Part shown: piece after piece, positions 7,333-63,651 of the stretch
Numbering within the stretch: the first letter of the stretch is position 1
How the letters are laid out: every line of letters starts with the position of its first letter
Assembly: GCA_030386875.1 (NCBI GenBank)
Contig: CM059560.1
Coordinates: 49,394,757-49,458,756 of the forward strand
Direction of reading: 5' to 3'
Length of the DNA stretch: 64,000 nt
From: Morinoia aosen
Taxonomy: Eukaryota > Arthropoda > Malacostraca > Amphipoda > Talitridae
The notes under the pieces: generated by a model
What the model was told of the DNA's origin: nothing
The model's input: only the letters and a program-made list of their open reading frames with translations
Databases searched by the model: none
Made by a program: the position numbers and the translations under genes

Positions 7333-8128
7333 CTCTTTCCTTCCCGACGGGAACTCCAGTTCCCGTCGTGAACTCGTCTTCCAGTTTAGGGAAATTGACG
7401 AAATTTCAGGGTAATTCAACTAGTAGGGAAATAATTTGAGGTAAATGACAAAATTAGGACAATTAATAATATTCCTGCATTTATGTTTTAGACACTCCAG
7501 AAGTTTGACACGTGCAATTTGCTAATGATATCCACTCAATGTAAGCTTCATGGTCTATGCAATACATTTAATACTTTTTCATTTAACTTGAGGAAGTTTT
7601 TCATAAGAACATGTATTTACAGATGAAATAAAGCAAAATCTAAATTGACATCATTCTCAGATTTTTCGGCTAGTTTTTTGGCGTGGAAGCACACATTTTT
7701 GAAGTACAATTTTTTTTTTCAATATAATACTTTGACCACAGAGTGGGACAAATGTGTACCACTAGGTAAATTGTTCATACAAGCACCAATGTAAATGTAT
7801 AAAATTTCAAACCATTTTGCGACCTTTTTTGAGGGAATTTTATCATACCATAAAAATATTATTGAGCTTTTACATTTTGTACATTTCTTACAAAGGACGG
7901 AAACTTATTCCAGCAAATACATCGATATTACCAGTCTGTTTTTCACAACCTAGCCAACTCAACTTTACAACACGTGCAATCGTAGTCAACGTGTTACAAA
8001 GGAAGTAAGCACCTGCTTATGCAGAAAAAAAAACACGCTAGGGCAATTTTGCTGATATTTCAGGGTAATGACTGAAATTACCTTAGAAAATTTTTCCCTT
8101 AACAATTAAAGTGATGGGAAGGAAAGGG
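7333..8128. mobile_element. TTAA-flanked MITE with CCCTTTCCTTCCC ends
   Basis: TTAA at 7329-7332 and 8129-8132 flank 13-bp inverted termini (CTCTTTCCTTCCC and the complement of CCCTTTCCTTCCC, one mismatch). A perfect hairpin GACGGGAACT/AGTTCCCGTC follows the left end. TTAA targets with CCC-type termini are typical of the piggyBac superfamily. No transposase frame is present. Another MITE (7727-7993) is nested inside. Lies in the last Usp47 intron. Confidence 0.8.
7727..7993. mobile_element. CACGTTGAC-end MITE, family C, nested in a larger MITE
   Basis: Matches the other family C copies: an 'acaaatgtgtaccactaggtaaatt' block near the left end and GTCAACGTG followed by TTAC (mutated TTAA) at the right end. 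It interrupts the 7333-8128 element. No coding capacity. Confidence 0.75.
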
Positions 8129-8328
8129 TTAAACACTTCAGGAGTTGAAGGAAATGACGCGAACGAAACTTTATGAAATTATTCGCTTCAGCATAGCTTC
8201 GTATGTCTCATCAAAGTTGAAGCTGAAAATAACAAGTTTTTAGAAACCGCGTTGTAATAAACACAATATTTATGTACAAATTCGAAGTCTAAGCTTATAA
8301 CAAAGTAGTACGTCTCACTGCCCTTCAA

Positions 8329-8553
8329 CACTTTGACTGCGACGTGAGCCACCGGTGGTACACGGAGGGAATTTTCATAATGCTGCTGACCGACCAGCAG
8401 TCACTGACTCAATTCCTACAAATACTTGATCAAAACGAAGTGAAGGCACGATCCAGTTAATGCTTGCTATTTTTAACATTTCTTACTAAAATTGACTGTA
8501 TATTTGAGCTGAATATTGAACTCCACTCAGTTTTACCTGCCGCAGCCAACGTG
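8329..8553. mobile_element. CACGTTGAC-end MITE, family B, next to Usp47 exon
   Basis: Left end CACTTTGACTGCG after TCAA (mutated TTAA), a CCACCGGTGGT palindrome near the left end, right end CAACGTG followed by TTAA at 8554-8557. The right end is about 60 bp from the donor of the 8615-8793 exon. Confidence 0.82.
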
Positions 8554-8614
8554 TTAAATGCTACACAGAACAATTTTAATAATCTAGTTCAACTTGGTCG
8601 TGAAATCGCCTAAC

Positions 8615-8793
8615 CTGTAGTACAGCAGGACGCCATCGTACAGCACATTGTAGGGCCTGTCATCGAGAGGCCCGTCACCGGAGTGCCACGTCAGAGTGGT
8701 TGTGATGTCGAGCACGGACACGTCGTGCGGGAAGGGGCCCGTGCCTCGGGCGAACTCAATGTTCTCAGCGCTCACGCCGCTCAGCTCACCCAG
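8615..8793 (-). CDS. Usp47: Usp47 exon: penultimate, conserved C-terminal domain
   Basis: A 179-bp exon with acceptor TTAATTCAG, donor GTTAGG, phase 0 in and phase 2 out. It encodes LGELSGVSAENIEFARGTGP followed by FPHDVSVLDI...YNVLYDGVLLYY, matching the family's [20 protein letters not shown] block. The intron above it carries the full-length retrotransposon; a TTAA MITE lies about 60 bp below its donor. Confidence 0.94.
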
Positions 8794-8875
8794 CTGAATT
8801 AAGAATTCATCCATTTATTCAGCACAGTCGTGGAAAATATAAGTTAGTTCAAGTACCGGAACAAAGGCATTTATT

Positions 8876-9165
8876 TCAAAGAAAGGAAGGAACCATTTAG
8901 TATGGAGTAACGGGAACGCGGTATCTATGCACAAGGTGTGTTCCCACTCAAGATCCGCGCGCATAGAAACAAGTTTAAAAGAAGGCTATGAAACAAGGAT
9001 AATAGTTGAAGAAGAAACTAGAGGTGCTGAAACACAAGACAACAGTGAACCGAAAAAAAGCTCATCCTCAACAAAACAAACATTTCATTTCAATAAAAAG
9101 GCCTACCTAACTCTCAGCTCGGAACCTTAGATTTTTCCCTAGGAGCACTTAAGCTGCTCAGTTAC
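8876..9165 (-). mobile_element. SINE-like repeat, diverged copy
   Basis: Plus-strand text ACCATTTAGTATGGAG...GAATAGTTGAAGAAGAAACT-like...CCTACCTAACTCTCAGCTCGG follows the family consensus. It is 5' (head) incomplete compared with the TSD-bounded copies. In a Usp47 intron. Confidence 0.75.
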
Positions 9166-9210
9166 CAGACATAACTTATCACAATTGTGCCATCCCTACA
9201 AAGCATCATA

Positions 9211-9249
<39 letters not shown>

Positions 9250-12300: not shown

Positions 12301-13112
12301 GCTTGCTGTAAGATGTTGGTCAAAGTAGCTGTGTGATCAACATTCTTTCCATTCAGCTGGTCGATATCCTCACTTGACAACTGGGTCAGTCTGCTAAACA
12401 GAGTCCAATTTCCTTTGTTTAGGTCATACCGTTCATATCTGGCTTGCATATTTTGAGGATGGACAGGATCGAGATGGATAGGGTAGTGATCGCTGTCATA
12501 AAGGTTTGCATTAACATGGTATTTAAAATCCAGATAGCAGTCAGGAGAGCATAGTGTTAAATCGATGACAGAGAGGGATCCCGTCTGCCTGTGAAAATGT
12601 GTAGGTTATCCGTCGTTCATGATACAGATGTTATTTTCTCTTACTATTCTTTCCATGAGTTGTCCTTTATCATTTACCACGTTGTCATTCCATAGTTGGT
12701 TTCGAGCATTGAAGTCCCCCATTATAATATACGGGGTAGGCAACTGGGAAATCAAATTTTCAACTTCTTGGTGTTGTACATTGATGTGCGGCAAGTAGAC
12801 CGAGCATATGGTGTATGTCCGGTGCAGATTAATACGTAGTGCTGCTGCTTGCAATGTGGTACGCAAGTCAATCCGGTGATGCGGTATTGTCCTGTGGATC
12901 AATATCGCAGCGCCCCGCTCGTGATCATCAGCGCGGGTCACACCAGAGGTATAGAGAGAGTACTGAGTGGGTGGTGTCACCGTTCTGTCCCGGAGCATGG
13001 TCTCTTGAAGGCAGACACATGCAGGGTGGTATAGATTGAGGAGTTGTTTAAGTTCACAGAATTTGGTTCGGTACGATTCTAAATTCCATTGAATAAATGA
13101 ATCAAAATTCAT
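9398..13112 (-). pseudogene. Retrotransposon ORF2 (endonuclease-RT-RNase H), with stops and frameshifts
   Basis: From the ATG at 13112. The endonuclease domain shows IQWNLES, LQET and GDFNARNQLWN. The RT domain shows FFDLQKAYDTAW, GGVPQGSILSC and YVDD. RNase H shows FFTDGSK, FTAEL, SDCRSAL and WVPSHVGVAGNERADEAA. The C terminus has CHQCQVTVSVKHILTKC. Lesions: a TAA at 12606-12608 just after the endonuclease; a frame change near 11733 and a second within the palindrome at 11657-11701, between endonuclease and RT; a TAG at 9674-9676 before the C-terminal knuckle. About 1,240 codons overall. The stops are consistent with C-to-T decay of Gln codons. Confidence 0.92.
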
Positions 13113-16482: not shown

Positions 16483-16847
16483 AAAGACTATGAAATATGA
16501 GCACTGATAGAAAAACTCAACTTGAACCAATTGCGTAGCTTAAGTTTTATGAGGAAGTTAAACTCAAACTCTGCTGTAAAAGTTCATGAATATCAACATT
16601 TTTTCTTCCCAATTTTGGTGCACCCTGTACAAATGTTATTTCAGTGAAGAGGCGTCAGAATGAATAATCATATCGAACTTTATAAAAGCTAAACAACCTT
16701 TTTTGTTGCAAAAAGTAACATCATTTTTCAAAAAATGTAAGTAATGACTCGAAAATTTACCCAGGACGAAAGCATCAACTAGTCAGACTTGGTAAAAGAT
16801 TAACATGCAAAAATTTTCAAGTTTTTTCTCGACAATCAGGAAATTAA

Positions 16848-17069
16848 CAAGTTAACCGAGATGGGTTAAACTGAAGTCTAGCATTCAACTGAAATTCAAA
16901 GTCGAAAGTGATTAGCAAATTTATAAACACCAAACAATAACTGGGTCCATTAAATCCCATTAATTTAAAAAATATTGATAGAATTTCCCAAACGACCCAT
17001 CGAAGGGTAGTTTCGCAGCAGGAAAAACCTAAGCACGACCCACCGGCGGATCATATCGCAAGCAACATG
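16848..17069. mobile_element. CACGTTGAC-end MITE, family A, 9 nt from Usp47 donor site
   Basis: TTAA at 16844-16847 and TTGA at 17070-17073 flank the element. It contains the family A signature of a GACCCATCG...-type palindrome and GCAGGAAAAACCTAAGC. Only nine bases separate the duplicated target from exon base 17083, and these contain the GTACGT donor. Confidence 0.85.
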
Positions 17070-17082
17070 TTGAAAAACGTAC

Positions 17083-23726: not shown

Positions 23727-23792
23727 CTGAACGTGGGCACGATGTTCATTTAGTATCGTATCGTGACCGCTCACTCGAGGTTAGGAATTTAA

Positions 23793-24014
23793 CACGTTGA
23801 CTGCAATGGGTTAAGCTGAAGTCCAATATTCAACTCAAATTTAAAGTTAAAAGTGATCAGCAAATTTATAAATACCAAATATTAAGTGAATCCATTAAAT
23901 ACCATTAATTTTAATAAGATTGTTAAAATTTTTCCAACAACCAATCGATGGGTCGTTTCGTAGCAGGAAAAACCTAAGCAGGACCCACTTATGGGCCGTA
24001 TCGCAAGCAACGTG
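23793..24014. mobile_element. MITE family A
   Basis: Starts CACGTTGACTGC after TTAA (23789-23792) and ends GCAACGTG before TGAA (mutated TTAA). It lies about 65 bp upstream of the acceptor of the 23551-23726 exon. Confidence 0.85.
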
Positions 24015-24483
24015 TGAACCATTGCAACAAGGTTACTATCAGTAGGAGCAAACAAATATTTGAACACCGCAAATTTTTTTGGCCCACGCGTTCTTGGGGC
24101 TGCGTTGTGAGGGCGTGAACGAAATTTTAGCAGGGCGGGCAAGCAACAACCTTTCATTTTGCAACTGCTGCAAAAAAGTTTATTTCATTCCAAACGAATT
24201 CAAAACTAAACAGGCTGTATGCCAAATCAGGAATTTTTATCGTTCTCAATTTTGTCTCCAAGAAAGTTTAGAACAAAAATTGTGTAAAATTTGATTATAA
24301 GAAGGCCTCTTGCAAGGCCTTCAAAGAGTAGAAATTATATAGATTTTTGAGACAGTAAGCTCCATTAATGAAAAGTACAGATTAAAATAACTACAAATCT
24401 GACATTTACAAGATGAATAATTGGGTTGACCACCACCAGCCCTAAATTTACAAGGATTTTGATGAATAGATTCTGCTCAAACG

Positions 24484-36089: not shown

Positions 36090-36141
36090 CTGCATAAAAA
36101 AAATCATGTTACATAATCGATCAAATCACACGGGAATTTAA

Positions 36142-36358
36142 CACATTTATTGCAGTACGACCCGCCGGTGGGTCGTGCTTGAGTTTTTCCAGCTGTGAAA
36201 CGACCCATCGATGGGTCGTTCGAAAAATTTTTAACAATCTTTTTAAATTGATGGTATTATTTCCCCAGTTTATGGTAGCTATTTTTGAAATTTTCAACTT
36301 TTGACTTTAAATTTGAGTTGGATATTGGACTTCAGTTTAACCCATCGCAGTGAATGTG
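36142..36358. mobile_element. MITE family A, reverse orientation
   Basis: TTAA at 36138-36141 and TTGA at 36359-36362. Contains the GACCCATCGATGGGTC palindrome. It lies about 50 bp upstream of the acceptor of the large N-terminal Usp47 exon. Confidence 0.85.
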
Positions 36359-36481
36359 TTGATGACATGACAATTCCAAGTTCATTATAAAGCCTCCGTT
36401 GTAAGATACTAGTACTCTGAGCGCCCCTGAGAGCTGAAAACGAAGAATTGATGAGTCAAATAGCTAGTGATTTTTCATTAA

Positions 36482-36701
36482 AACATTTCTTGCGAAGTGA
36501 CCCACCGGTGGTCACTTTAGGTGATTTTCATAGTGCTGCTAACCGACCTGCAGTCCGTATCTTGTTTTTTATTATATTTAATGAAAGCTAAATGAAGGCC
36601 AGATCCAGTTAAAGTTTGCTATTTTAAAAATTGACTACCACAAATGACATTAAATTTGAATTGAATGTTGAACTTCAGTTTGACCCATCGCAGTTAATGC
36701 G
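36482..36701. mobile_element. MITE family B, diverged
   Basis: Carries the GACCCACCGGTGGTCAC palindrome near the left end and the GAACTTCAGTTTGACCCATCG block near the right end, as in other family B copies. Ends are diverged, with TTAA at the left and GTAA at the right. Confidence 0.7.
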
Positions 36702-36764
36702 GTAAGTAAAGCCTGAGCGTGCTGCGCACGGTTGTGAGACGAATCGACGCCAAGTAAAGCTTAA

Positions 36765-37479: not shown

Positions 37480-37730
37480 AAAGCGTAGCACGAAAATACC
37501 GCAAAAGCCCGAAGTCGTACCGCAAAACAACAAAAACAACATAGGGAGCATGAACAAGAAGATGCAGTAGCTCAAAAATCAGAGGAAGGGACGTTCAACT
37601 CAGCAATTCCCAGGAGCAAATTTGAAGAGGATGATCATTGTGAACATCGCCCTTTCTGTTTTGATGAGGATGAAACTACGCAGTTAGAAATACGTGACTT
37701 GACACGTTCACTGCGTATTGGTGCATGAAC
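37480..37730 (+). pseudogene. Coding-like fragment interrupted by a MITE
   Basis: An open frame without ATG. It includes EHEQEDAVAQKSEEGTFNSA and KFEEDDHCEHRPFCFDEDET, running into the family C MITE at 37703. Acidic, with a few Cys/His. Origin unknown; possibly a relic of a mobile element. Confidence 0.25.
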
Positions 37731-37957
37731 ACCACTTGCTAAATAGTTCATTTACGTACCAGTAGTAATGTATACCATTTCACTGCCTTTATTTAAATTA
37801 GGCTATGGCGTAAAGTTAAAATGTTATCGTGCAATTACTTGTTTCCGCTTGTTAGGAAGGATAAGAATGTAAGCATGCAGTAAAGATGACTTTTCAATTC
37901 TGTTTCTTGCAACCTAACCAAACCGACCGTGGCAACCGCGGAAGCGTAGTGAACGAG
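37703..37957. mobile_element. MITE family C
   Basis: CACGTTCACTGCG left end after TTGA (37699-37702), and GTGAACGAG right end before TTAA (37958-37961). The interior has TTTACGTACC and AACCAAACCGACCGTGGCAACC as in other copies. It interrupts a short coding-like plus-strand segment. Confidence 0.8.
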
Positions 37958-38063
37958 TTAAAACATCGTGCGAAAAGAGGGCCGGGGTAACAGCAGCAAG
38001 CAGGGCGTGCCAACTGACCACCGTAAAATTTTTCTATAGTGATGATAGTGTAAAATTGTTTTG

Positions 38064-39022: not shown

Positions 39023-39985
39023 GCGTACCTTTCCTCTCTAATTTCCCTACTTCTCTTTCCTTCCCTTATCGAGGATTTAAATCCTCTTGCTGTCAGCAGC
39101 CCCGGTATATTATGTGTTGCCGCGCTCTCAGCGCCGCATTTTGTCAAACTCTCCAGCATCAAGTACCATTAAACGCCGCAGCTCTCCAGTGCATCAATAT
39201 CCTTCGGTTCGCACATTGGTATTGGTGCACACATCCACACCTGACGCTATCTTTACACCAGTAAGGATGGACGTTAAGGCGCCGTGACTAAAGTCTCTCA
39301 CTGCTTTCAATCAGAACAAAAAGGATGTTCAGGAATGAAGTTTGTGGGCCTGAAGCTTCCATTCAGCATGAAGCTTCCATTCAGCAGCCCCGAATGAGCA
39401 CGATACAGAAATTATCTTGGGTCTATTGGAAGTAAACAATTAGAAATCCTCAACGTCAAGGTGAGCAGCATTGACAGAGTTGACAATGTCAACGCATGCT
39501 GTTCACTCAACATCAAACGTCGATATTCTCACCACCGGTGAGTTCTTGTACCATTTTCATTTAATTTAAAGTATGAAGATATCGAGCATTACGAACGCAT
39601 GTACTAAAGGATATTCCAGTACACTCCGACAACCAAACGATTAAATCGACAACCAAACGAACATTAATCTTCAACATTTCTCTACATACCAAGTAGCTCT
39701 TCGTGGCTCTGGTGATTTTTATGAATAATTAGAGTTCTGATATCTCCAACTGCTGTAGTAGTAACAAACTACATCTATGGATAATCTTTTCTTACGGTAG
39801 GTTTATTGCCTCGGATAACCTACACCGACAGCCGTTGCAACGGAAACCACACGCGTTTCAACGTTTCGCTCAGCACATTCCACTACCTCTTTCTAAACAC
39901 GTCAGTAAATATAAGAACACGGTATTTCTATTGCAATTATTTCTGTTTTCTATGTCAAAACTCTCCATGAAAATTCCATAGTTAA

Positions 39986-40202
39986 CACGATGGTCGGGAT
40001 ATGAGCCGCCGGTGTACTAGGATGGAATTTCTATAATGCTGATGACCTACCAGTAGTCACAAACTCAATTTTTATAAATACTTAAACATAGCTAAATAGA
40101 GGCACGATCCAGATGTTTGCTCTTTTCATAATTACTTACTACAAATGACTTTATATTAGAGTTGAATATTGAACTTCAGCTTAACCCATCGCAGCCAACA
40201 TG
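39986..40202. mobile_element. MITE family B
   Basis: TTAA at 39982-39985 and 40203-40206. Contains the GCCGCCGGTGT variant of the central palindrome, ATGCTGATGACC, and a right end CAGCCAACATG. Confidence 0.8.
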
Positions 40203-40989
40203 TTAAAGCAATCTGTCACAAAATTAGGATGTCCCCTACAAACAAAATGGTAGGCATAATTCGTTCCGAGAGTAAGTTCACTACGGGACACTCAGGCCCG
40301 GGCTCAAAACACAGTCTCTTTTAGTCTCAACGGAGCATAAGACCATGAGCGGATTATAAATTTAGCAAAAATATATTACCAGAACGCAGGTGGTCCTTTT
40401 TAAATGAAAATTTCCAACTATAATACACTAAAGATTATTCTAATTATGGTTATTACGCTTCAATAACCATAAACGCTTGCCAAGCGACTTGATAATGGAA
40501 CTCAGAATTTCTTGAATGAACTTAGATGGGGAATCTAAAACACAAGAGTTTTAATCAAAACAACTAGTGTGAAAGAGGATTAATAAGTGCAGTATTTTAT
40601 CACGGCTAGCTAGGACCCCAATGCGAGGGTAACAGTTCAGAGTGTTAAGTTTAGGAATCCTGGAATTATTTTATTCTTAGATAATCTTCTTACAGAAATA
40701 GCGTAGATCTAACAAACAATTTTCTTCACTCATAAAAAATTGACGATGTAATGAAAAAGTTTTCTGATTTATCTAGTTTTTTATTAGATCGCGAGCTGTG
40801 CCGAAAATGAGCTCTGGTTAATTGTCTTCCAGAAGACGAACACTAAAGAGAGAAGAAGAATCAAAAGGAGACATTCTTGCAGAAAAGATGTCATCAGAAA
40901 AGGTCTAATACAATAAAAAAAAAGCAAGAAAATTCCGCCAAAAAAGCGCTAAGGAGGCTCACACCACCTACAATGGAGCCAGTCTTCAA

Positions 40990-41254
40990 CGCGTTGGTTG
41001 ACGCATTGGTACAAATGTGTACCACAAAGTAAATTGTTCATTCATACACAAATGTAAACTAACAACATTTTAACCATTTTACGACTTTTTAAAATTAATT
41101 TTATCGTAGGAGGGAAATATTATTGTATACTTATACGTTGTATATTTCTTAAAAATGATAGAAACATATTCGAGCAGCAAAGTCGATTTTCCAATTCTGT
41201 TTCATACAACCCAGCCACATCAAGCGTACGATCCGCGCAAACGTGGTCAACGTG
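40990..41254. mobile_element. MITE family C with paralogous empty site
   Basis: Flanked by TCAA (40986-40989) and TTGA (41255-41258). A nearby duplicated copy of the flanking DNA (41440-41475) has an uninterrupted CAGTCTTTAATAGCAGC, which is the empty site. This fixes the element ends (CGCGTTGG...CAACGTG) and shows a TTAA target. Confidence 0.9.
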
Positions 41255-41258
41255 TTGA

Positions 41259-45439: not shown

Positions 45440-47426
45440 GCCCGCCCCCACTCACCCGCTGATTAGAGGGCGCACCGCCCCCAGCGTCGTCCCTCTTAGG
45501 TGTGAGGCACATTGTAACTCTAATGGCACGGCTCACATGTCATCTTTCCGAACGACTAAACGCCACACCATTTTTTTCGTATGCACTAGTAATTTGGTTA
45601 TATTCAAAGACACCAATGCTCAGTTTTCACTAAACGAGTTGTTCGGATCTAAGGGAATGGGGAGGAATGTTTTATTTTTAGGTCATCACAATGCATGGTA
45701 TGGTGGTGAATGAGGTGCTTTTTTTGTATTATTAGAAAGTATATCAAAGTGTAAATTGAAGACGTTGTGATACCACCGTTTGAACGCGTATTTAATGATG
45801 GGCCTTATGTAACACTTCAAATGTTGCCACCTAAAAAATTTGAGTCTTTCGTTTGGAAGAACTTAGTCTGCAGCGTGCGCTTGATACGAGTAGTTCCACC
45901 ATATTAGGGTGATAAAATGATTTATGGAAAAAATAGATACTTTTCATTGATAAGGTCTATTAAATTTCACTAACTTTTAACTTCCCACATTGACATGAAT
46001 TACACTTTCGAGCAATTGCATTTTACGAGCGTGCGTTAAACACGAAAAAATATCTACGTGTTACGTGAAGTACTAAACGCTCTCAACAGAAGAAATAATA
46101 AATTTGACCAAAATTCACACCTCGGTCACAAACAAGGATCAAAACTACAAATATAGCAAATACAATGAGGATATATGAAGCCAAATGAAACAGGGTGCAT
46201 TTTATATGAAAACGTGCGATGCAAAACCAGGGTAAGACTTTTTCAACAAAACTTTTCTTAGCCGAAGTGAAAAACTATTTGACAGGAGGGTGATCATACA
46301 AATTTTAAAATAAAATAATCTTCAGCGCATTCACTTCATAAAAACATTTAGGAAGAACTCATGCAAGAATGATGATTTGCTACTATAAATGCAAATTAAA
46401 CCGCGTCATAATTAATATAACAGCTTCTGCATTTCGATCACTAATATGAACAGAATCGAAGATGAATTTTTTCAAACCTTTATGTTATTTCGGAATAACT
46501 AAACTCAAAGAAACTAATCTGAAAGCACTCAACTCATTCGCCAAAAGGAATACGCATAAAATAAAATTAAAACGTTCGTTCAGACGCATAGAGAGGCTAA
46601 GAGAGCTGTCAATCAACACCACAGGAAACGTTTGAATAACAAGTACGAATCTTTTATATAAACGGCGAAATCACAGGCTCTGTTTCTCCCTATACTGAAC
46701 GCACCTTCAAGCCAGAAAACATCTCTTGAAATTGAACAGCTTCTTTATAGCCGCTCTGATAATGGATCCATGACTACTGTGACATTTCATCGGTTCCAAT
46801 CTAACTTTGTCTCTTACATGCAATATGACTTCTATTGATTGCTAGAGACTTCTAACAATCTATGACTTCTATTGACGCACAATAGTTACTAAGCCACAAT
46901 GGACGTTGTCCGTAGCTCGTTTCTAAGCGTTTATGTTTCACAGGACTCGGTGCTTTTGATAGACATCACTACCCACAATCCGAGGCTACAGGGAGTTATA
47001 AAAAAAGTAACGCCCGACCATGCGCCTTTATTATATAATAGGTATCAGTAAGTAAGGCAACAGAAGAATGTTGCGTGCTGCAATTCAAATACTTTACGTA
47101 ATTCAATTTTGCAATTCGAAGAGCAACGTCCTAAATAAGCCTGTACTTCTACCGATACGCTAGCTCGTTTAGATACAAACAGCGTCTGCAGCAAGCAGAT
47201 GTGCTGTATTGAGGCTATCCATTATTGCTACGAAGTCTTAGATATAGTGATGCCTTCGCAAGCCCCGACTATGGGTTGAGGTAATTTTTCCTATCCATGA
47301 ATTCAACATGCATGTTTTTATAGAATTTAACGTTATCCTGGCATTTATAATAAAAATTTTCACTTTCACACACATTTATTCAAATACTACTACAAGACAG
47401 ACGCTAAGTCCCACACAAGTTGCGTA
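45440..47426. other. Gene-free AT-rich stretch
   Basis: A 117-codon plus frame at 45360-45713 overlaps the inverted repeat and shows no domain. The rest has only short frames. No transposon ends recognised. Confidence 0.5.
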
Positions 47427-47550
47427 GAACGCGTTGACTACGCATTGGGACACATGTGTGCCACTAGGTAAATTGCGTATTTGTATACCGGCATAAATGA
47501 ATGGCATTTCAATTATTTCACTCCTTTTTTCAAAATTGATTTCAGCGTAC

Positions 47551-47923
47551 TAGATTAGATTATAAGTTAGTTTAAGCCTCCCTAACCGCTACAAAAAAAG
47601 AGCGTATCGAAGAGAGGAAGAAATCAGGCACCAATTAGTATGGAGTTTAAGAGAATGCAAAATCTATGCAGAAAGGGCATAGAAACAGTCAGTTGAGAAA
47701 GAAGTTCATGAAATAAGATCAAAGATGAAGAAGTAGTAGGTGCTGAAAAACAGGACAGCAATGAACCGAAAAAAAGTGGTCCGTAGCATAACAAAAAATA
47801 CATTATATTTCAACAAAAAGAAGGCATACCTAACTCTCAGCTCGGGCTGAGAGTTAGGAGTGCTAATTTTCCCCCTAGAAGTGCTAATTCCCATAAATAC
47901 AATAGTTGTATCCCCCTGAGGGG
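47551..47923 (-). mobile_element. SINE-like repeat with 11-bp TSD, nested in MITE
   Basis: Perfect duplication TTTCAGCGTAC at 47540-47550 and 47924-47934 bounds a 373-bp element. It begins CCCCTCAGGGGG on the minus strand and ends in ATCTAATCTA. Contains a small duplication of the CTGAGAGTTAG segment. Confidence 0.92.
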
Positions 47924-47998
47924 TTTCAGCGTACGAGGTAAATATTACCGTGCAATAATACTTCTCCCGCTTTTTAGAAAGGATAAGAATGGATTCAA

Positions 47999-48219
47999 CA
48001 CGTTGACTGCGACTACTAAATATTAAGTTCAATACTAAACTGAAATTTAAAGTCAATTGTAGCAAGCTATTTTGAGAATACCAAACACGAACTGGATCGT
48101 GCCTTCATTTAGCTTTGATTAAGTACTTATGAAAATTGAGTTTGCGACTACTGGTCGGTCAGCAGAATTATGAAAATTACCTCCGTGTACCACCGGTGGT
48201 GCACGTCGCAGTCAAAGTG
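47999..48219. mobile_element. MITE family B, nested in family C
   Basis: TCAA at 47995-47998 and TTAA at 48220-48223 flank the element. Contains CTGGTCGGTCAGCAGAATTA and a CACCGGTGGTGCACG palindrome, in the reverse orientation to the copy at 8329. Confidence 0.85.
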
Positions 48220-48262
48220 TTAAGCAGTAGTCAGTTTTTAAATTTTGCTACTCACAACCTAA

Positions 48263-48791
48263 AGGCCCCGATACACTGGCGTTCATGACTCGAGAAATTG
48301 CGGCAGTGGATCCGTCCGCCAGTTGAAGTGAGAACTGGCGACATGATACACTCAGCACACAAGATGAAGCACCGCGGAATGCAATGCAAGGCGTCAGTCT
48401 GCCTCAGATTGTCGTACGGGTAGGTGCGCGCTAGCGACCAGCCGTATGGAGCGCAGGATCCAAACGAAGCGCACATTGCGCTGTGCTATAGCCTTCTGTA
48501 AGCGCTGCTTATCACATTCTGCAAGCGTCGAATTTTTTAAATGCGTCAATACAATTCAGTGTTCGAGTTTTGTCCACTCAATTGCGGAGCAAGACATTAC
48601 TGCGCACCACTCCCGTCAACGTTTAAACCTGTACTGCTCATCGCAGTGACGACCGTCCTAATCCAGACATGCTCGGATCGCTGAAAGCTCGGTGGCCACT
48701 CTGCCAACTGGCTGGTGTGCAGGGATGGGAGGCACATTGAGAGGCGTGCTGACGGTTATCACCGCGATTTTTGCCTAGTGTATCGGGGCCT
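48263..48791. mobile_element. TAA-flanked MITE with AGGCCCCGATACACT termini (PIF/Harbinger-like)
   Basis: Perfect 15-bp inverted termini AGGCCCCGATACACT, flanked by TAA at 48260-48262 and 48792-48794. A 3-bp TWA target and GGCC-rich ends are typical of PIF/Harbinger elements. 529 bp, no transposase frame. It sits inside a family C MITE, whose sequence continues in register on both sides. Confidence 0.85.
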
Positions 48792-48834
48792 TAACCGAAC
48801 CAACCGTAGCAGCCGCACAAACGTAGTGAACGTT

Positions 48835-51573
48835 TTCAGGCACTTGAAGAGCCTACACCTACGTCATTCAGGCAAACGGCAGTACATGCGCCTACCAAGA
48901 CCCTGACAATGAGCGCTAAGTGAGAAACCGAAAACTGAAAACCTGAGAAGGTGTGCTTTCTCCTGTCCATCACGAATCGCTGGTTAGGAACTGTTCATTT
49001 TCATACTATCGAATTTCGACGCATGAGTTCGAGCTCCAGCAAATACTCGAGCTCAAGGTGGTCAAAAGGTTCTATAGTATGCATGCTTTTATGCTTACCA
49101 ATTTAATTACAAGAATTTAAGCGGAAATAACATGCTTAAAAATGAATATCTTAGCTATCTTACTGAGTAAGAATATAAAATTCCCAGACTTAATACTCCC
49201 TCAAAGTGATAATTTTCAGGACACACGGATGCTATGCGAGCTAAAATGACGAGTGTTCTATCGACAAGGGTATTAACTCAAGTAATTGTACCAATTCTAA
49301 CCCATTTAGTACATTTAGAAGCGAACCAGCAGGAATTTAAGTTGAGCTTCACTCGACTACCACACACATCACAGAAACATTACATGGAAGTATCCCCGAA
49401 AGTTGTCGAGAAGCCGAAGTAAGCACAACAAAAAGGAGAATGCCAAGTATGCAACTTTCATCATTTCTGTTCAATTTTTGAGCCACAGCAAACCGAATCT
49501 GATGTGCACGGGAATTTTCTAACCACTATGGCCATTACCACTGAGCCAATAAGGGAAACCTGGAAAATATAGGATTATGTAACGAGAACTTATCTATTAC
49601 ACCTGTTTTAACCTCAACAGTATATCGAAATACCAAAAAATTATCTTCTCAAAAGTATACCACAAACGACGCCACAAAATGTTCGTAAATTTATTATGAA
49701 ATTTCGAATGACCTTTGAAAAGTCAACTTGCTTTCACTATGGAAAATTAAAATTAAGATTAAAATATTTCAAGAAGTATTTCGACACTAATTCCAACATC
49801 AACGTTCGACACAGTTAAAAATTGAATATCTGCCAAGTCCTTTGTAATCATTTAGTATCCAAACCAAGTTGGAAATATTCGAGCAGACGCTGGCTTGTTG
49901 GCTTAGTTATCTAAAACCAGAGTGCGCACAATACTGGAAAAGATTTCAAGAGAAAAAGTCCGGAGACCTTTACACTACTGGCTATCCTTGATTTAGAGCA
50001 AAATATAATTCTTTCTCCCTCATCGTAAATTTTACGCGTAACACATTTCAACAACATTAAATTTGTATGCAAGCGAAGTTGATCAAGCACGTTATTGAAG
50101 ATGTAATGTTGTTCAAGACCCTGCGCTTTTCTTTCATGGAAATGAAATAGACTACACTCTTAGCACTGAGAGCGAAGCCAAGACCTCCGCTATCACATTA
50201 CTTGATATTAGTTGTAAGGAGACACTACGCGTGATATTTAAATCTTCTCACTTCTAAATATGAAATAGCTGCAATTTACCTTAAGTAATTTTTGCCAATT
50301 CAATGAAGAATACAAACTTATCAGATCAGTAGCAATAGAGATGTCACCTAACAAACTATATCGTCCCCTAAAGGCAGCAACACAACTCTTTGCTAGCACA
50401 ACATGGGGAAAATCACTCCACTAAAACGATTTATAGAAATTCTTAACGTTGTATTACAACAGAAAAGTGATTCCGGCTTGGAAATTCTCCATATGCCAAC
50501 AAGTCGTCGTCCCTTCCCAAACTACACTGACTAAAAATGCAAATTACCAGTCATCTACTGGAAACAAAATAAACGTTTTTCACGGTCTCTAAAATAAATT
50601 CTTATTAACAGAAAAAGGTGAGGGTGTATAAAAAGCCTAAATACAAAAACCTTTAATTGTTGAAATACGTTTTTCGGTAGCATAAAATCAATCAGCATGA
50701 ATATAGAATTACTTCCTCTGTTGACTCCAAAACTCAACCTCGACACAAAACATCTGATTACTTGTTCTGCGACCGTCTGAACAATTAAACATCATTCAGA
50801 TATTTTTTATGCCGCGAGTTTGGTTAAACAAAACTGTCATGCAATCATTTCAGGGCAAATGATCAACGTACGCAAGCTAGATGGTATCGAAAAAGTACCT
50901 CATTTCAGGTTAAGATAGAGTAGGAAGATCGGAAAAGTTTCACGAGGTTCACTCTCTCTAATAGCCACCCTTCATCGCTACCCACTTCGCTTCGTTCTCC
51001 ACACTGAATCAAAACATGTCAACCATCTCTAAATGTGCAAATAATAGTGGGCTTCTGCGTTCCCTTTCCAAGTCCTAAAAATCTTCACGACTACCTCAGT
51101 CGCAGGACGAATTTTTGTCGGTAATTTATCAAGTGATGTGAACAAATTTTAGCGGTACATCAGCCATTCGAAAACGCGATATTTAGTGACAGGAATCACG
51201 ACAAATTTCATTTCAGATAATTTCATGGCATATCACCCAGTTGAAAATGCGATATTTTATTGCAGTGATAACCAATAATTTCATAAGCGGTGGGGAATCT
51301 ACCTAGAGTATTACAAAAAGGGGACACAAATAGAACAGTGCAACGCTAACAGGAAAGTGATAAGAAATCTATGCACAATTAAAACAAGCAAAGATCAACG
51401 TGTAGTTCAATCCAGGATTTCAATTTCAGCATTTCTTCTCGTGAATCTAGCACATTCAACTATAGTTTCCGATCACATTCCTAGTCACTTGAAACAAGGA
51501 TGTCGTTCGCACATTTTTCATAAGCAGTAATCTCGGAACTTTCTCATAAGCAGTAATCTGGGAGCTCCCGGAC
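48835..51573. other. Gene-free stretch
   Basis: Short unsupported frames only, and no terminal repeats or target duplications seen. Confidence 0.5.
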
Positions 51574-52799: not shown

Positions 52800-52924
52800 T
52801 CGCTTCCAACTTTTCACACTTTTTAGAAAGGATATAAATGAATTTGAGCAATACAGTCGATTTTTCAATTCTAATACAACACAACCGAACCAACCATAGA
52901 AACGGCACCAACGTCGTCAACGTG
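52800..52924. mobile_element. Partial MITE family C (right half)
   Basis: Contains TTTTTAGAAAGGATATAAAT, GAGCAATACAGTCGATTTTT and ACACAACCGAACCAACCATAG, ending GTCAACGTG before TTGC. The left half is not recognisable. Confidence 0.65.
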
Positions 52925-53891
52925 TTGCGAGTGGGATAGCTGGATTTGAATTTTACCATTTGCCGTTCCTGTGTAACGTAGTTATGGTAACGCCATTGGT
53001 ATTTTGCAGCAGCTACGATGACGAAAATTAAAAAACACGAGGGTGACAGCGACCGTGTCATAAAATATGACAACGGTAATTCAAAGTTATGCACGAGGAG
53101 AGCAAGAGATTATTTTTATACAACTATTCTAAATAGAATTACCACATGAAATTGGTTGTAATTCGTCGACATATGAAATACTATACTCTAAAGAAAAACT
53201 TATAATGAGTGCTATTCGAAAGTAAATTAATCAACTGATAAATTAGAAAATTATAACACAAATTTTGTGTAAAGCAGTGAAGACTTACTCGGATAATAAC
53301 AGCGTAGCTTAGTTGAGATGTTAGATTGAGCTTTCCTAACCGCAGCAAAGGCGTTGCAACGGTAAGTAGGAGGCACTATTTAATTTTGAGCTAGGGAAAC
53401 GTGGAATGTATGCACAAGGTGCATATAAACAAAAAGTTGAGAAAGATTACTATTATTATTATATAAGAAAGTTTTAGCCTCCCTTAACCACGACAAAGAT
53501 GTTCTAAGAGAGGAAAGAGGAAGGCACCATTTAGTATGAAGTTGAGGGAACGCGGAATCTATGCACAAGGTGCACAGAAACAGTAAGCTAGGAAAGAAGT
53601 TCATGAAACAAGAAAAAGGTTGAAGAAGAAAGTAGTAGGTGCTTAAAAACAAGACAGCGGTAAATCGAAAAAAGATGGTCCATACACACAAAACAAAAAC
53701 ATATTTTATTACAACAAAAAGGAAGCCTACCTAACATTTAGCTCGGACCCTCACATGTTCCTCCAGGGAGTGCTAATTCCCATAGAAACATTAGTTGCAT
53801 CCCCCCCGAGGTAGAATAATAATATTACCAAAACTACGTTACACAGGAACGGCAAATGGTAAAATTCTAATCCAGCAATCCCACTCGCAAC
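52925..53891. repeat. Inverted duplication around SINE insertions
   Basis: 52925-52990 and 53824-53891 are inverted copies over about 66 bp (sharing CCATTTGCCGTTCCTGTGTA). Together with the adjoining family C MITE parts the arms reach roughly 190 bp, separated by about 830 bp. Confidence 0.75.
53310..53815 (-). mobile_element. SINE-like repeat inserted into an older copy
   Basis: 53310-53448 is a diverged 3' portion of the family. At about 53449 an ATT run starts a second, better preserved copy that extends to ACATTAGTTGCATCCCCCCC near 53815. Confidence 0.75.
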
Positions 53892-53908
53892 ATTGGCATC
53901 AATGTTAA

Positions 53909-54158
53909 CCCGTTGCTGCCGTTACTACGGTTGGTTCGGTTGTGTTGTGAGTAGAACTGAAAAGCCGACTGTACTGCTCAAATCCATTTTGATCCTTTTT
54001 AAAAAGTGAGAAAAATTTAATTACACGATATTTTAACCCGTATGCTAAAATCAATTTTGAAAAAGGTAGTGAAACAATTGAAACGCTATTCATTTACACC
54101 GGAATGGAAATAAGCAATTTACCTAGTGGTACACGTGTCCCAATACGGAGTCAACGTG
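53909..54158. mobile_element. MITE family C, reverse orientation
   Basis: TTAA at 53905-53908 and 54159-54162. CCGTTGCTGCCG left end, ACGGAGTCAACGTG right end, ACCTAGTGGTACACGTGTCC near the right end. Its left half is inverted relative to 52800-52924. Confidence 0.82.
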
Positions 54159-54203
54159 TTAAAATCATGCACCCTAAATTTCGCCCCTTTATTGAACGTT
54201 TAC

Positions 54204-54469
54204 CACGTTCACTGCCGATTTTCCACTAAGTAAATTGATCATTTACGTCTCGGTGTAAAAAAACAGCATTGCAATTATTTTGACATATTTTTCATAAGAG
54301 ATTTAAGCATTCGAGGTAAAACATGATCAAGCTATTACCCTGTCACACTTCTAAGGAAAGATACATTTTTTTTTCGAGCAGTAAAGTCGTTTTTTTAACT
54401 CTGCTTCTTACAACCGTTCTCAACATGAGACCACTGGACACAAATGTGCGTAAAGCTGCAGCGAACGTG
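54204..54469. mobile_element. MITE family C
   Basis: CACGTTCACTGCCG left end and GCGAACGTG right end before TTAA at 54470-54473. The interior CATTTACGTCTCGGTG matches other copies. Confidence 0.78.
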
Positions 54470-54954
54470 TTAACCATAGTAAAAGTACATAGTGCTGGGG
54501 AGGAGTTTTTACCCGTAATTAAGCACTCTTGCGTGCAAGGTCTGGCTGGGCATCATCACGTAGAGCGCCAGGGTCTACAGCGTCTACGGCCTTCGCATTT
54601 TTGTGAAGAAGCTCTAACGTAGCTCAGCTGTTCTGAATTGTGCGACTCGCAACCTGTTTCCCATAGGAGCTCACGTGACACATGAGCAGAAGTGAGGCAA
54701 CAAAGTAAAATTTCGCCTGTAAACAGCGTCAAAGTGTAAGGCAATACTTGCGTAATTAACTCCGAGGGTCGACCTAAGCAATTCCAACGACGTTCTGTTT
54801 AGCCAAACGTAAACGTAGGCATCTTGTTTTAAAATAAAAATGACATTAGAAGAAAGCCGGCCCTGAGTGATTCGCTTAATATGTCATCAAAGAGACGTGG
54901 ACACTATCAACGAAATTTTTACACGAACGATCTGAACACAATTGAAGGTTGATC

Positions 54955-56475
54955 TTAGAGACGTCGCTTGCGATACGACCCATCGGTAGGTCGTGCTTAG
55001 AGGAGATCGTCCCACTTTTTCAACCTTTTTCGTCCGATTCGTTTGAAAATTGGCCAGTATATGTATTTTGAGAAAGAAAACCTTTTTTACATCTGTCACT
55101 TTTTCGATTTAGGGCTTAGTTTTTTTTCGAAAAATTAGTTTTTTTGGTATATTTTATGGATATTTCAAGATGTATCTCCTCATTCAGTTTTGATGCTAGA
55201 ACAAAACCAAAGAGTTTTAGAATCCTTGGAACATTCCTAACAAACTCAAATGGGCTTTTTTCAAATTCAAGTTTTGTCTATATTTTCAATTTTTTTAAAA
55301 TTTCTAAAAACAGTAATTTTGTGGGTTTAGAGCTATATATTTTTTTGAAAAATTTGAATTTGTAAAAAAGCTCATTTGAGTTTGTTAGGAATGTTCCAAG
55401 GATTCTAAAACTGTCTTTGGTTTTGTTCTAGCATCAAAACTCGATGACTAGTCCCATTTTGAACGTTGAAAGTTAGAAGCGTTGGGCATAAGCATAAAAC
55501 GAAATTTTTTGTTGAAGTGTAATATAATGAATTTACGTAATTGAATGCAGTTTTCATTTTATTTCGATAATTTCCATACATAACTTCATATTCACGCTGT
55601 GAATTGTGATTTCCAAACCCCCACAAAAAAAGTTATATTTTCAAAAATATGAACTTTTTATTTTCAGTCTGATTCTTACAAAATTTGACTATGATATGTA
55701 ACTTCTGAAAAGAAACACAATTTATTCTATTAATTTTTTTGATTTAGGACTTAGTTTTTGAAAAAATTTGACACTGGTTTTTAGGTATTGATATTTCACT
55801 GGTATTGATATTTCAAAATATATCTCCTCATTCAGTTCTAATGCTAGAACAAAAAAAAAGACAGTTTTAGAATCCTTGGAACATTCCTAACAAACTCAAA
55901 AGTTTTTTTCTAATTCCTATTTGTTTTCCTTTTATATGGGGTTGAAATGGGCTCAAAATTAAAGATTTTGGTGCTTTTTCATTGACATTGATATTTCAAA
56001 ATGGGACTTGTCATCGAGTTTTAATGTTAGAACAAAAACAAAGACAGTTTTAGAATCCTTTGAACATTTCTACCTAACTCAATGGGCTTTTTTCCCATTT
56101 CCCATTTGTTCTCTTTTTATATGGGGTTGAAATGGGCTCAAAGTTGAAGATTTTGGTCCCTTACCCCCACCCTGGGGGGGGGGGATCTATTGTCTGTAGC
56201 GCCATAAAATTTTAAGACCAAATAGTCCACCACCTAAGGGTTCTTTTCCAACAATAACATGTAAAATGACCACCTGAGCCACAGGGGCCTGGGACGATCT
56301 CCTTAAGGTTTTCCTGCTACGAAACGACCTATCGATGGGTCATTTGAAAAAATTAAATAATCTTACAAAATTAAAGGTATTTAATGAACCCAGTTAATGT
56401 AGGCAATTTATAAAGTTTCAACTTTAAATTTGGGTTGAATATTGAATTTCAGTTTCACTCATTGCGGTCAACGTG
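54955..56475. mobile_element. MITE family A split by MITE family G
   Basis: The left piece (54955-55000) has GCTTGCGATACGACCCATCG; the right piece (56303-56475) resumes with AAGGTTTTCCTGCTACGAAA and ends GGTCAACGTG before TTAA at 56476-56479. The intervening 1.3 kb is a separate element. Confidence 0.82.
55001..56302. mobile_element. TTAA-type MITE family G with AGGAGATCGTCCCA termini
   Basis: Perfect inverted termini AGGAGATCGTCCCA (55001-55014) and TGGGACGATCTCC ending at 56302, followed by TTAA; the left flank is TTAG, probably a mutated TTAA. The interior is AT-rich. A block built on GATGCTAGAACAAAACCAAA recurs as an inverted copy (about 55192-55262 versus 55366-55446) and again as direct copies near 55840 and 56020. 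No transposase frame. Confidence 0.82.
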
Positions 56476-56861
56476 TTAAACCTATCGGACAAACATGAGA
56501 GGTGAAACACAACCCTTCGCAATGGTTAAAACTCAACAATTCAAACGGAAAAGCTGAAGAACACAACAAGGAAGAGATAGCAAATGAAATGAGATGACAC
56601 TGGGAATCGGTTAACAAGCGGAGTAGAACAATTTCAAGGCTGGATGTAGATCTCCAACTTTCAGTGTGAAAAGTAAAATTGTTATCTAAAGAAAAAAAGT
56701 TTAATACTCAACTGAATTGTTCTCATTCCTTTACGGCTATATAAATGGACACTTAACTAAGCTAACACACGAGGAACAAAACATTTCATAGAAAATCTGA
56801 AACTGATTGATACTCTTAGCAAACTTTTCCATGGGATAGCATACAAACTCTACCTTCTGAT

Positions 56862-59231: not shown

Positions 59232-59235
59232 TTAA

Positions 59236-60060: not shown

Positions 60061-60229
60061 TTAAACAACGTCAATGAAATACAAAAATTATCTCAGGATT
60101 CAAGTAAAATTTAAATAATTGAAGTTTTTTGTGTCTCCCAAGCCCCATCAATGAGGTAGAAGTTAACAGAAATGCTGCCCCACAATTAAGAGAATGAGAT
60201 GAGAATGAAGCAGCCAATTGCATATGAGC

Positions 60230-60835
60230 CACAATGGCGCAGGGAGAGAGGGCCACAATGGCGCAGGGAGAGAGGGCCACAATGGCGCAGGGAGAGAGGG
60301 CCACAATGGCGCAGGGAGAGAGGGCCACAATGGCACAGGGAGAGAGGGCCACAATGGCGCAGGGAGAGAGGGCCACAATGGCGCAGGGAGAGAGGGCCAC
60401 AATGGCGCAGGGAGAGAGGGCCACAATGGCGCAGGGAGAGAGGGCCACAATGGCGCAGGGAGAGAGGGCCACAATGGCGCAGGGAGAGAGGGCCACAATG
60501 GCGCAGGGAGAGAGGGCCACAATGGCGCAGGGAGAGAGGGCCACAATGGCGCAGGGAGAGAGGGCCACAATGGCGCAGGGAGAGAGGGCCACAATGGCGC
60601 AGGGAGAGAGGGCCACAATGGCGCAGGGAGAGAGGGCCACAATGGCGCAGGGAGAGAGGGCCACAATGGCGCAGGGAGAGAGGGCCACAATGGCGCAGGG
60701 AGAGAGGGCCACAATGGTGCAGGGAGAGAGGGCCACTACGGCGCAGGGAGGGCCACAATGGCACAGGGGGAGAAAGGCACTATGGCACAGGGGGAGAAAG
60801 GCACTATGGCACAGGGGGAGAAAGGCACTATGGCT
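60230..60835. repeat. 24-bp minisatellite open in all frames
   Basis: About 25 tandem copies of a 24-bp unit (CACAATGGCGCAGGGAGAGA plus GGGC). The first 20 or so are almost identical; the last ones change to CTATGGCACAGGGGGAGAAA. As the unit is a multiple of three without stop codons, long frames appear on both strands; these are not genes. Confidence 0.95.
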
Positions 60836-60890
60836 GGAAGAAAGGACCACAATAACAAGTTACACCACAATAAATGCACACATGTTGTGA

Positions 60891-61208: not shown

Positions 61209-61272
61209 CATAAGATAGACAATCCTAACTAACCTATACCTGTGCCTATCCTATGCCTCCTGAGATGGATGC

Positions 61273-61491
61273 TTGATGGAAAAGAAAAGTCATTGTGGTA
61301 CCAGAAGACAAAACAAAATTAAAGTTGTAATGATGCTTTGGGTCATGATGGAAACAGGAAATAACAGCCAGACAGAAGTTTTCGTAAATAAAGAAGGCTA
61401 TCACTTCTGGACAGCCCACAAAGTAGGCCAATATGTGATGAAAATTTTGGGTCTACAAAATGCAATACCAATTGAAATGTCAGTATTCTAA
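61273..61491 (+). CDS. Unrecognised coding-like segment, possibly same relic
   Basis: A 72-codon frame from the ATG, including NNSQTEVFVNKEGYHFWTAH and KVGQYVMKILGLQNAIPIEM, ending in TAA just before a family G MITE. It lies 65 bp after the preceding segment on the same strand, in another frame. Together they may be pieces of one decayed gene. Confidence 0.3.
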   Translation: MMEKKSHCGTRRQNKIKVVMMLWVMMETGNNSQTEVFVNKEGYHFWTAHKVGQYVMKILGLQNAIPIEMSVF

Positions 61492-61512
61492 TTTGGGAAT
61501 ATTCTCTTTTAA

Positions 61513-61912
61513 GGAGATCATCCCACTTTTTCAACTTTTTTTGTCCGATTCGTTTGAAAATTGGCCAGTATATGTATTTTGTGAAAGTAAATCTTTTTTA
61601 CTCGTGTCATTTTTTCGATTTAGGCCTTAGTTTTTTTTTTCAAGAAAAATTAGTTTTTTGGTATATTTTGTGGATACTTCAAAATGGGACTCGTCATCGA
61701 GTTTTGATGCTAGAACAAAACCAAAGACAGTTTTAGAGTTCTTGAAACATTTCTAACAAACTCTCATGGAATTTTTTTCAAATTCAAATTTTTTCTTTTT
61801 TTTTTTATTTCTTAAAATTTCTAAAAACAGTATTTTTTTGGATTTAGAGCTCTAGATTTTTTCAAAAAATTTGAATTTGAAAAAAAGCCTGTGATAGTTT
61901 GTTAGAAATGTT
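61513..61912. mobile_element. Partial MITE family G
   Basis: Begins GGAGATCATCCCAC right after TTAA (61509-61512) and follows the 55001 element through TTGGCCAGTATATGTATTTT and the inverted GATGCTAGAACAAAACC block. No right terminus is seen before about 61912. Confidence 0.75.
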
Positions 61913-62861
61913 AGGGGCTCAAATAGGGGGCTCAATTTTTAGAAAAAAGTTCAAGGGACTAAAAAATTTGCAAAAATATTTCCAGAGCGTTACAGCAAAG
62001 AGTCTTTCAATGCTACAAACTAATGCAACAAGCACAACAAAAATGATGCACAAATTTCATAATTTTTTTTTGAAGCTTCTAACATACTCAGCAGTTAAAC
62101 CCATATAAATATTACATACATGAATATTGCATATTAAAATTTTCATAATCAATATTAACAAACTGTCAATTAGACAAAAAGTATCAACTCTCAAAAAAAA
62201 TTATTTTTCAACAGATTTGGGATCCCTTAGATGCAAGACACCCTCTAAACTTTCAGTTGCTGTTCTGATTTAGTGGTAGGAAATGCTAGTCATGTAATAA
62301 AAAACTCTAACTCCATAAAAAGAGCTCTCCTGAAAAATCCTGTGAAATGGACTTGGCACTTTTTTATCTGATCAACAAAACTAAGAACAACGCAAACTTC
62401 AAGTAGGTACTGAAGTTTGCTTTCAAAATTTCATCACCTACTAGATACACATATTTAACTATAATTTGGATGCCAGCCATTATCCAAAACAAAATTTGGC
62501 CACAAGGTTTTAATTCACTTGAAAAGAATATTTGGAATGCTAAAATAAAAACAATAAAAGCAACAACTTGAATTTTAATTCACTTCACTAACAAATCAAC
62601 ATAACTACGGTATTTTATGATCAAAGTGTGGTACCAGACGTACTACTGAATAAAAGACGTGTGTTTGGCAAACATAAAAATAATTCTGAAGTGTTGCACT
62701 AGTTTGTACTATAGGGACTTGGCCAACTCAAAAAAAAGATCTCATTTTTCATATCTAAGCCTGCACACAATACAATATTCTAGATCTCTCTCTATGACAG
62801 ACTATTCTGGCTACAAAAAATTGGAAAAGCAATAAATGCACATTGCATTTGAGGCTATATA
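61913..62861. other. AT-rich stretch without recognised content
   Basis: Short frames only; nothing supportable. Confidence 0.5.
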
Positions 62862-63432
62862 TTAGATAATAAGTTAATTTAAGCCCCTCTTACCACAAAA
62901 AAGTGTCCCAAAGAGAGGAAGGTAACATGAAGTATGGATTTGTAATGCCCTACCTTAGTTACCCCTAGAATCTCATTTCTAGTCATACAACTGTTCAGTA
63001 ATTCTAAAATGTGCCAATGTAAATTTATTCAACAAAAAATTCCCACTTCTCCGACACGTATCACCGATACCTAGAGCCGGAGAAGTATAAGAAAGGCCGC
63101 TGCTTCACTCGCCTCAGACGGAACTCAATGGCTAAAGCAGCAACACCTGGCCTTACAGATTAATTGAAACGGAATCTTTGCATGAGGTGTTTACAGGCAA
63201 TAGTTTCTTGTACATGCAACAAGTTGGGAAAGAGGTTAATGAAACAAGATAATTGTTCCAAAAGGAAGAAGTAGGTGATGAAAATTAGGACAGCAATTAA
63301 TTGAAATAGATTGGTCCTAAAAAACCATTAAACTTCAGCAAAACAATCTTTAGCTCAGGACTTTACATGTGCCTCCTGCAAGTGCCTGTTCCCATAAATA
63401 AATAGTTGTATTCAACTAGGAGGCACTTGAGG
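62862..63432 (-). mobile_element. SINE-like repeat interrupted by about 225 bp
   Basis: The tail part 62862-62940 (ATAATAAGTTAATTTAAGCC...GAAGTATGGATT) and the rest at 63165-63432 (GAATCTTTGCATGAGGTG...AATAGTTGTATTC) flank an unrelated insert at 62941-63164, whose origin I do not recognise. Confidence 0.65.
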
Positions 63433-63448
63433 TAGGAAAATTCCTTGA

Positions 63449-63651
63449 CATGTTTCTTGCAATAGGACCCATTGAAGGGTCATGCTCAAGTTTTTCCTGC
63501 TGGTTGTTTAAAAAAGTTTTAACAATCTTTCAAAAATTAGTGGTACTTTATGGACCTAGTTAATGTTTGGCATTTATAAAATTTCTAGCAACTTTTGAAT
63601 TCCCAAGTGAGTTGAATACTGAACTTCAGTTCAAGCTATTGCAGTCAACGT
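63449..63651. mobile_element. MITE family A
   Basis: TTGA before and TTAA after. Contains CTTGCAATAGGACCCATTG, GTTTTTCCTGCTGG and GCAGTCAACG, matching the reverse-oriented copy at 36142. Confidence 0.78.

Follow-up and report, generated by a model that had tools for sequence, protein, structure and literature searches.

The 64,000-nucleotide stretch of the amphipod Morinoia aosen analyzed here (assembly GCA_030386875.1, contig CM059560.1, positions 49,394,757 to 49,458,756; hereafter the window) contains three kinds of miniature inverted-repeat transposable elements (MITEs), designated A, B and C. With a probability of about 0.9, we attribute them to non-autonomous piggyBac elements targeting TTAA that would be mobilised in trans by a co-resident clade of transposases with CAC[GT]TT tips. 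The attribution is based on the shared ends, on the duplication of TTAA, on the abundance of the ends in the genome, on near-identical young copies of A and on autonomous elements with the same tips and, in part, the same palindrome positions. Since several full-length piggyBac transposons of the same genome have ends of this kind, we regard the set as a large but ordinary piggyBac family. A first-pass annotation of the window had proposed a MITE superfamily with TTAA duplications and piggyBac affinity, which was borne out by the ends, by nesting and by transposases with the same tips.

The window repeats have inverted CAC[GT]TTGACTGCG-like ends and TTAA targets. With up to three mismatches, the 13-base-pair (bp) tip CACGTTGACTGCG was found 30 times, compared to a mean of 9.63 and a maximum of 16 in 100 shuffles, and TTAACACGTTGAC occurred 19 times with up to two mismatches (shuffle mean 1.93). 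Inverted pairs of a 17-bp end lying 150-450 bp apart numbered seven at up to four mismatches, with none in 30 shuffles, and 10 at up to five (shuffle mean 0.2, maximum 2). Allowing six mismatches made this a weak test (29 pairs; shuffle mean 8.0, maximum 18), and because paired-end detection of the C copies at 7724 and 40986 requires six, these two rest on homology. A profile search yielded 18 copies in total, close to the roughly fifteen announced by the first-pass annotation: 12 full copies of 225-274 bp (three A, four B, five C) and six partial ones, which comprise two A (one nearly full), an interrupted C, half a C and two end fragments. The A, B and C profiles were seeded with all 12 full copies. 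Pieces outside the seed had E-values from 2.7e-38 to 0.0026, the weakest being the C piece to the right of a nested B, and the best E-values in the backward window were 0.0014 for A, 0.12 for B and 0.39 for C. Rfam at gathering scores gave no match in the window. The elements are short and gene-less, with inverted ends, target duplication and high copy number, the genome-wide counts behind the copy number being those of the 17-bp end and of A only.

These counts were obtained from the assembly of 1.99 gigabases in 29 contigs, which includes the window. The 17-bp end with up to two mismatches gave 35,651 matches (18,034 + 17,617), compared to 237 (119 + 118) for its backward control. An A-specific 29-mer with up to three mismatches gave 2,414 matches (1,243 + 1,171), its backward control 0 + 0. 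Six young A copies, from among eight loci of the 17-bp-end search, showed 0-1 differences from a 230-bp consensus. The three full A copies of the window are 81-83% identical to this young A sequence, and we therefore consider the window insertions to be old.

Duplication of TTAA was followed at the tips and at two nested insertions. Counting by tip only, TTAA within one mismatch preceded eight of eight tips with at most one mismatch (four exact), 7/10 with two mismatches (two exact) and 5/12 with three (two exact), the window background being 8.3% within one mismatch and 0.67% exact. All 24 flanks of the 12 full copies were within one mismatch of TTAA and 12 were exact, a count that is biased because these copies were found with a TTAA-bearing pattern. 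Likewise, all six young A insertions had TTAA on both sides, one side belonging to the search pattern. Where a B copy is nested in a C copy, the C model matches stop at 186 and restart at 184, with flanks TCAA and TTAA; the C match to the right of the insertion is a short and weak one (E 0.0026). At locus L002 an A copy is inserted in a repeat that we label SINE-like (short interspersed nuclear element), as AGTTAGT-TTAA-[A]-TTAA-GCCTCCC, and the uninterrupted site AGTTTAAGC with a single TTAA is present in 5 of the 13 window copies listed. The B-in-C nesting and the A insertion in the SINE-like repeat both support TTAA target-site duplication as known for piggyBac. The SINE-like repeat itself (AGTTTAAGCCTCCC) is abundant in the window, for example at 28572, 38553, 44276 and 47554; its internal TTAA was the target of A in L002 and perhaps also in L006. 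A further A copy (L045:919-1148) occupies precisely the TTAA that flanks a piggyBac element starting at 1145.

The three MITE types are not equally distant from one another. The A and B profiles recovered each other's full copies over almost the entire length, and the A and B interiors, trimmed of both ends, aligned 5.6-10.3 standard deviations above shuffles in all 12 comparisons. The corresponding values for A and C, with two of the five C copies used, were -0.9 to 1.0, at background in six of six. A and B can therefore be considered sister lineages and C a separate one, which to judge from these alignments has only its ends in common with A and B. The view that all three types are unrelated to one another was ruled out for A and B by the profile cross-matches and interior alignments, so that the unrelated middles described by the first-pass annotation hold for A versus C and fail for A versus B.

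A genome search with PF13843 (piggyBac, DDE_Tnp_1_7) returned 116 scored matches of 2,398 candidates; the family was absent from 14 control genomes of unstated kind. Ends were inspected at 30 loci from this search and at 20 more. Paired ends were recovered in 23 of the first 30, with L015, L019, L025, L036, L037 and L038 unpaired and L035 set aside as a low-complexity match, and in eight of the next 20, from which L048 was excluded as an internal repeat. The elements of L037 and L036 recur as L039 and L040. Twenty further places gave 14 two-ended candidates, three with a single end (C13:29.14M, C14:23.77M, C15:50.26M) and three with no clear end (C1:6.61M, C4:44.26M, C6:8.63M), TTAA being sometimes altered at one or both ends. 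Paired CAC[GT]TT tips at TTAA were found at L016, L017, L018, L020, L021-L024 and L028, at L045, L050, L054 and L055, and at L061. The genome accordingly holds transposase genes flanked by TTAA and CAC[GT]TT tips, which is what the first-pass annotation had suggested looking for; among the loci inspected, no transposase element carried the exact CACGTTGACTGCG at both ends.

Six families with CAC[GT]TT tips were distinguished: F1 (L016, L021 and relatives), F2 (L018, L020), F3 (L036, L045, L055), F4 (L037), F5 (L050, L061) and F6 (L015, one end only). A genome search with the F5 protein gave 78 matches and added F7 (C17:14.45M, C21:77.84M) and F8 (C2:30.86M, C4:70.17M). Copies of F1-F6 have open frames of 578-606 amino acids. 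Representatives of F1-F6 together with L056 are about 37-55% identical among themselves and 24-32% identical to the CCC-tipped L009, L026, L033 and L052. In an 18-row transposase tree, the CAC[GT]TT rows and two rows of unknown ends formed one clade with support 100/98. Its nearest outside rows were L058, with a CCC tip, and L030, a short fragment with a CACATT tip; CAC as such is therefore not restricted to one clade, and as a label it requires two changes on the tree. The profile of six clade transposases matched piggyBat 9c0f (E 2.4e-86) and piggyBac 6x67 (E 2.2e-60), placing a DDE_Tnp_1_7 transposase in the autonomous relatives of the gene-less MITEs. The third catalytic aspartate (position 447 of chain 6x67, as counted on the profile alignment) was kept in five of six aligned proteins. 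L036 has Y at this position despite its open frame.

A second link between MITEs and autonomous elements is given by subterminal palindromes. Young A carries a perfect palindrome of 22 bp at each of two positions, with centres 25.5 and 68.5 bp from the tip, and L045, L050 and L037, from three families (F3, F5 and F4), show palindromes at both positions as well. Among the window copies (named by letter and first position), C47426 and B47995 show a palindrome at 25.5 with shuffle values of 0.010 and 0.023, respectively; in F2 (L018) it is at 24.5, and the printed sequence of F1 shows, by our reading, an imperfect odd palindrome around bp 25. In the gene-bearing elements L016, L018, L045 and L050 the palindrome end is the one downstream of the gene, and the upstream end of L050 has palindromes at 160.5 and 217.5. 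The longest series, at L046:699-1206 in a piggyBac element of F3, consists of twelve perfect GTACCACCGGTGGTAC palindromes from 25.5 to 498.5, exactly 43 bp apart. The 43-bp period is found in A, L045, L050, L037 and L046, several of the palindromes being perfect.

In the mechanism that we propose, the transposase core would read the tip of about 14 bp, a dimer of C-terminal cysteine-rich domains would recognise the palindrome whose centre lies some 25 bp inward from one end, and the element would be excised at TTAA and inserted into another TTAA site. We infer that transposases of the clade mobilise A, B and C in this way and that the palindrome helps to decide which transposase is paired with which MITE. 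When the palindrome ends of the MITEs were compared with those of the transposase families over their first 40 bp, all four A ends were nearest to F5 (29-34 of 40 bp) and three of four B ends to F8 (28-30), with F3 next (25-29). The palindrome class also tracks the transposase tree, F1 going with F8 and F4 with F5; F7 is outside the tree. We treat a link of palindrome and transposase as a hypothesis. Tentatively, and with less than even odds, the co-resident families may have retained one tip pattern and a rigid 43-bp spacing while the palindrome changed; the palindrome would then be an address that partitions MITEs among transposases, and arrays of up to 12 units as in L046 would be natural high-affinity ends or sinks for transposase.

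Several observations weigh against the attribution of A, B and C to this clade. B36478 was nearest to F7 (29-30), so B is not uniform. Two of the three C copies compared matched every family at 16-21 of 40 bp and the third at 11-18, with CCC-tipped controls at 9-17; C47426 reached 21 at most, its CCC-tipped controls 11-17. The A model matches L050 (F5) over positions 1-128 only, and beyond the tip the second end of A agrees with autonomous upstream ends over just a few bases, so that A does not emerge as a simple deletion derivative. The three profiles, run over a part of the piggyBac loci, namely 50 loci (L009-L058), six more (L059-L064) and the flanks of 20 of the 78 F5 matches, turned up no autonomous element that could be the exact parent of A, B or C. 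Stops were found in two copies of F7 and F8 transposases, those whose matches cover nearly the full length. As for the palindromes, the shuffle values of B8325 (0.157) and C40986 (0.063) were not significant, C37699, B36478 and B39982 had none at 25.5 among their top four, and those of C53905 and C40986 were one base off. The even-palindrome scan found none in F1 (L016 0.88, L021 0.84). A weak palindrome (0.050) is also present at the opposite end of A.

The idea of the first-pass annotation that one transposase moved A, B and C, the shared tip being sufficient, did not hold up well and appears unlikely. The tip is indeed common to all three, cross-mobilisation via a short terminal motif was proposed for coral piggyBac MITEs in the available part of PMC2872659, and the palindrome-transposase link is weak, 15 of 200 shuffles agreeing as well with the tree for six labelled families. 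Against this stand eight co-resident families with the same tip pattern and the fact that A ends are nearest to F5 and B ends mostly to F8; nearness to different families does not indicate one shared transposase, and to judge from the end sequences several transposases are likelier than one.

Two other readings can be given very little weight. The TTAA could be part of the terminal repeat rather than a duplicated target, and alignment alone cannot decide this, since the aligned ends of the 12 full copies all follow TTAA or a near form of it. It is made highly improbable by the SINE-like repeat, which has just one TTAA where no element interrupts it, and by the C sequence around the inserted B, with the reservation made above for its right-hand piece. 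Least probable of all is an origin from Kolobok, another superfamily targeting TTAA: target and short size would fit, and Xenopus T2-MITEs are taken as Kolobok type in PMC6004289, the accessible text of which gives Kolobok ends as AGGRR or RR, whereas those found here are CAC[GT]TT. PF13843 transposases with CAC[GT]TT tips are moreover present in the same genome, which was not searched for Kolobok transposases. Trans-mobilisation of the MITEs by the CAC[GT]TT-tipped piggyBac clade is the attribution that we retain.

Table 1. MITE copies in the window; positions count from its first letter, and model positions refer to the A or C profile.
Element	Positions	Strand	Basis and remarks
MITE A, full, palindrome end at 17073	16844..17073	-	82.5% identical to young A
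MITE A, full	23789..24018	-	profile and copy table
MITE A, full, palindromes GACCCGCCGGTGGGTC and GACCCATCGATGGGTC	36138..36362	+	profile
MITE A, palindrome tip unmatched	56256..56479	+	model 23-230
MITE A, nearly full, degraded TTAA	63445..63656	+	model 2-225
MITE A end fragment	54956..55020	+	E 8e-07
MITE B, full	8325..8557	+	profile
MITE B, full	36478..36705	+	profile
MITE B, full, TTAA both sides	39982..40206	+	profile
MITE B, full, inserted in C copy	47995..48223	-	profile
MITE C, full, degraded ends	7724..7997	+	profile
MITE C, full	37699..37961	+	profile
MITE C, full	40986..41258	+	profile
MITE C, full	53905..54162	-	profile; tip at 53905 altered, so TTAA there may be fortuitous
MITE C, full, internal insertion	54200..54473	+	profile
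MITE C, interrupted by SINE-like repeat (~47551-47920) and MITE B (47995-48223)	47426..48271	+	C model pieces 3-126, 108-186, 184-237 (last E 0.0026)
MITE C, one half	52809..52928	+	model 149-271
MITE C end fragment	48791..48836	+	E 1.3e-05

Beside the half C copy, the flank at 52923-52990 recurs inverted at 53825-53892 next to another C copy and is 96% complementary to it. A 272-bp hairpin element at 38049-38320 with GGCGGGGCTTATCTGG arms was unmatched by the A, B and C profiles. The window further contains clean tandem arrays at 60228-60821 (24-bp unit x 25) and 23087-23507 (20-bp unit x 21), frames with reverse transcriptase, RNase H and endonuclease domains at 4589-7009, 9674-11494 and 12606-13112, labelled LINE-like (long interspersed nuclear element), and a ubiquitin hydrolase frame at 29566-31770.

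The comparison with known systems draws on the available portions of the papers cited. Of the six tip motifs listed for piggyBac elements of beetles (PMC12732532), one is CACGTT, and CAC instead of CCC tips are reported for bee piggyBac (PMC10140906) and Kenshin (PMC4298943), which removes the anomaly that the first-pass annotation had seen in a start other than CCC. The beetle CACGTT-type elements share with the present ones the tips, TTAA duplications and a single transposase, there of about 500-725 amino acids. The main text of that paper does not mention MITE, non-autonomous, subterminal or palindrome; in the present case MITEs predominate, and the positions of palindromes are reported. 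The beetle and present clades may be the same, to judge by the tip motif. Bee piggyBac likewise targets TTAA and Kenshin has a 235-bp non-autonomous form, their tips running CACTA in place of CACGTT. Coral CMITEs (PMC2872659) are, like A, B and C, short-ended piggyBac/TTAA MITEs of which one genome has several families; they differ in their CC[C/T]T tips, a size of about 100 bp and an interior more conserved than the ends. The present tips are CAC[GT]TT and not CC[C/T]T, and because CAC and CACGTT tips have been published for the superfamily, we take CC[C/T]T as common and not as defining. The exact 12-mer CACGTTGACTGC was not found in the literature searched. With these tips already published, the MITEs and the co-resident transposases are a large and probably recently active instance of an already known piggyBac type.

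The architecture of a tip followed by a palindrome centred at about 25 bp is shared with piggyBat and piggyBac ends (PMC11707139, PMC7351741). In piggyBac the palindrome comprises bp 17-33, is centred at about bp 25 and is bound by the cysteine-rich-domain dimer (PMC7351741). In piggyBat the motifs are placed at 11, 55 and 99 and confined to one end, each with a palindrome 3 bp on (PMC11707139), so that by subtraction the first would lie at 19-32; this unit repeats every 44 bp, compared to the 43 bp found here. The exact 43-bp period and a twelve-unit array are not described in the available text of the piggyBac literature compared, no search having been aimed at either. The analysis identifies an abundant repeat of this genome and the transposases that probably move it. 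With several families of the same tip pattern and different palindromes next to thousands of MITE ends, the contributions of palindrome and tip to piggyBac specificity become directly testable. Finally, the twelve-site array of L046 is a natural counterpart of the laboratory construct with one extra binding site, which, in the text available, raised integration about two-fold (PMC7351741).

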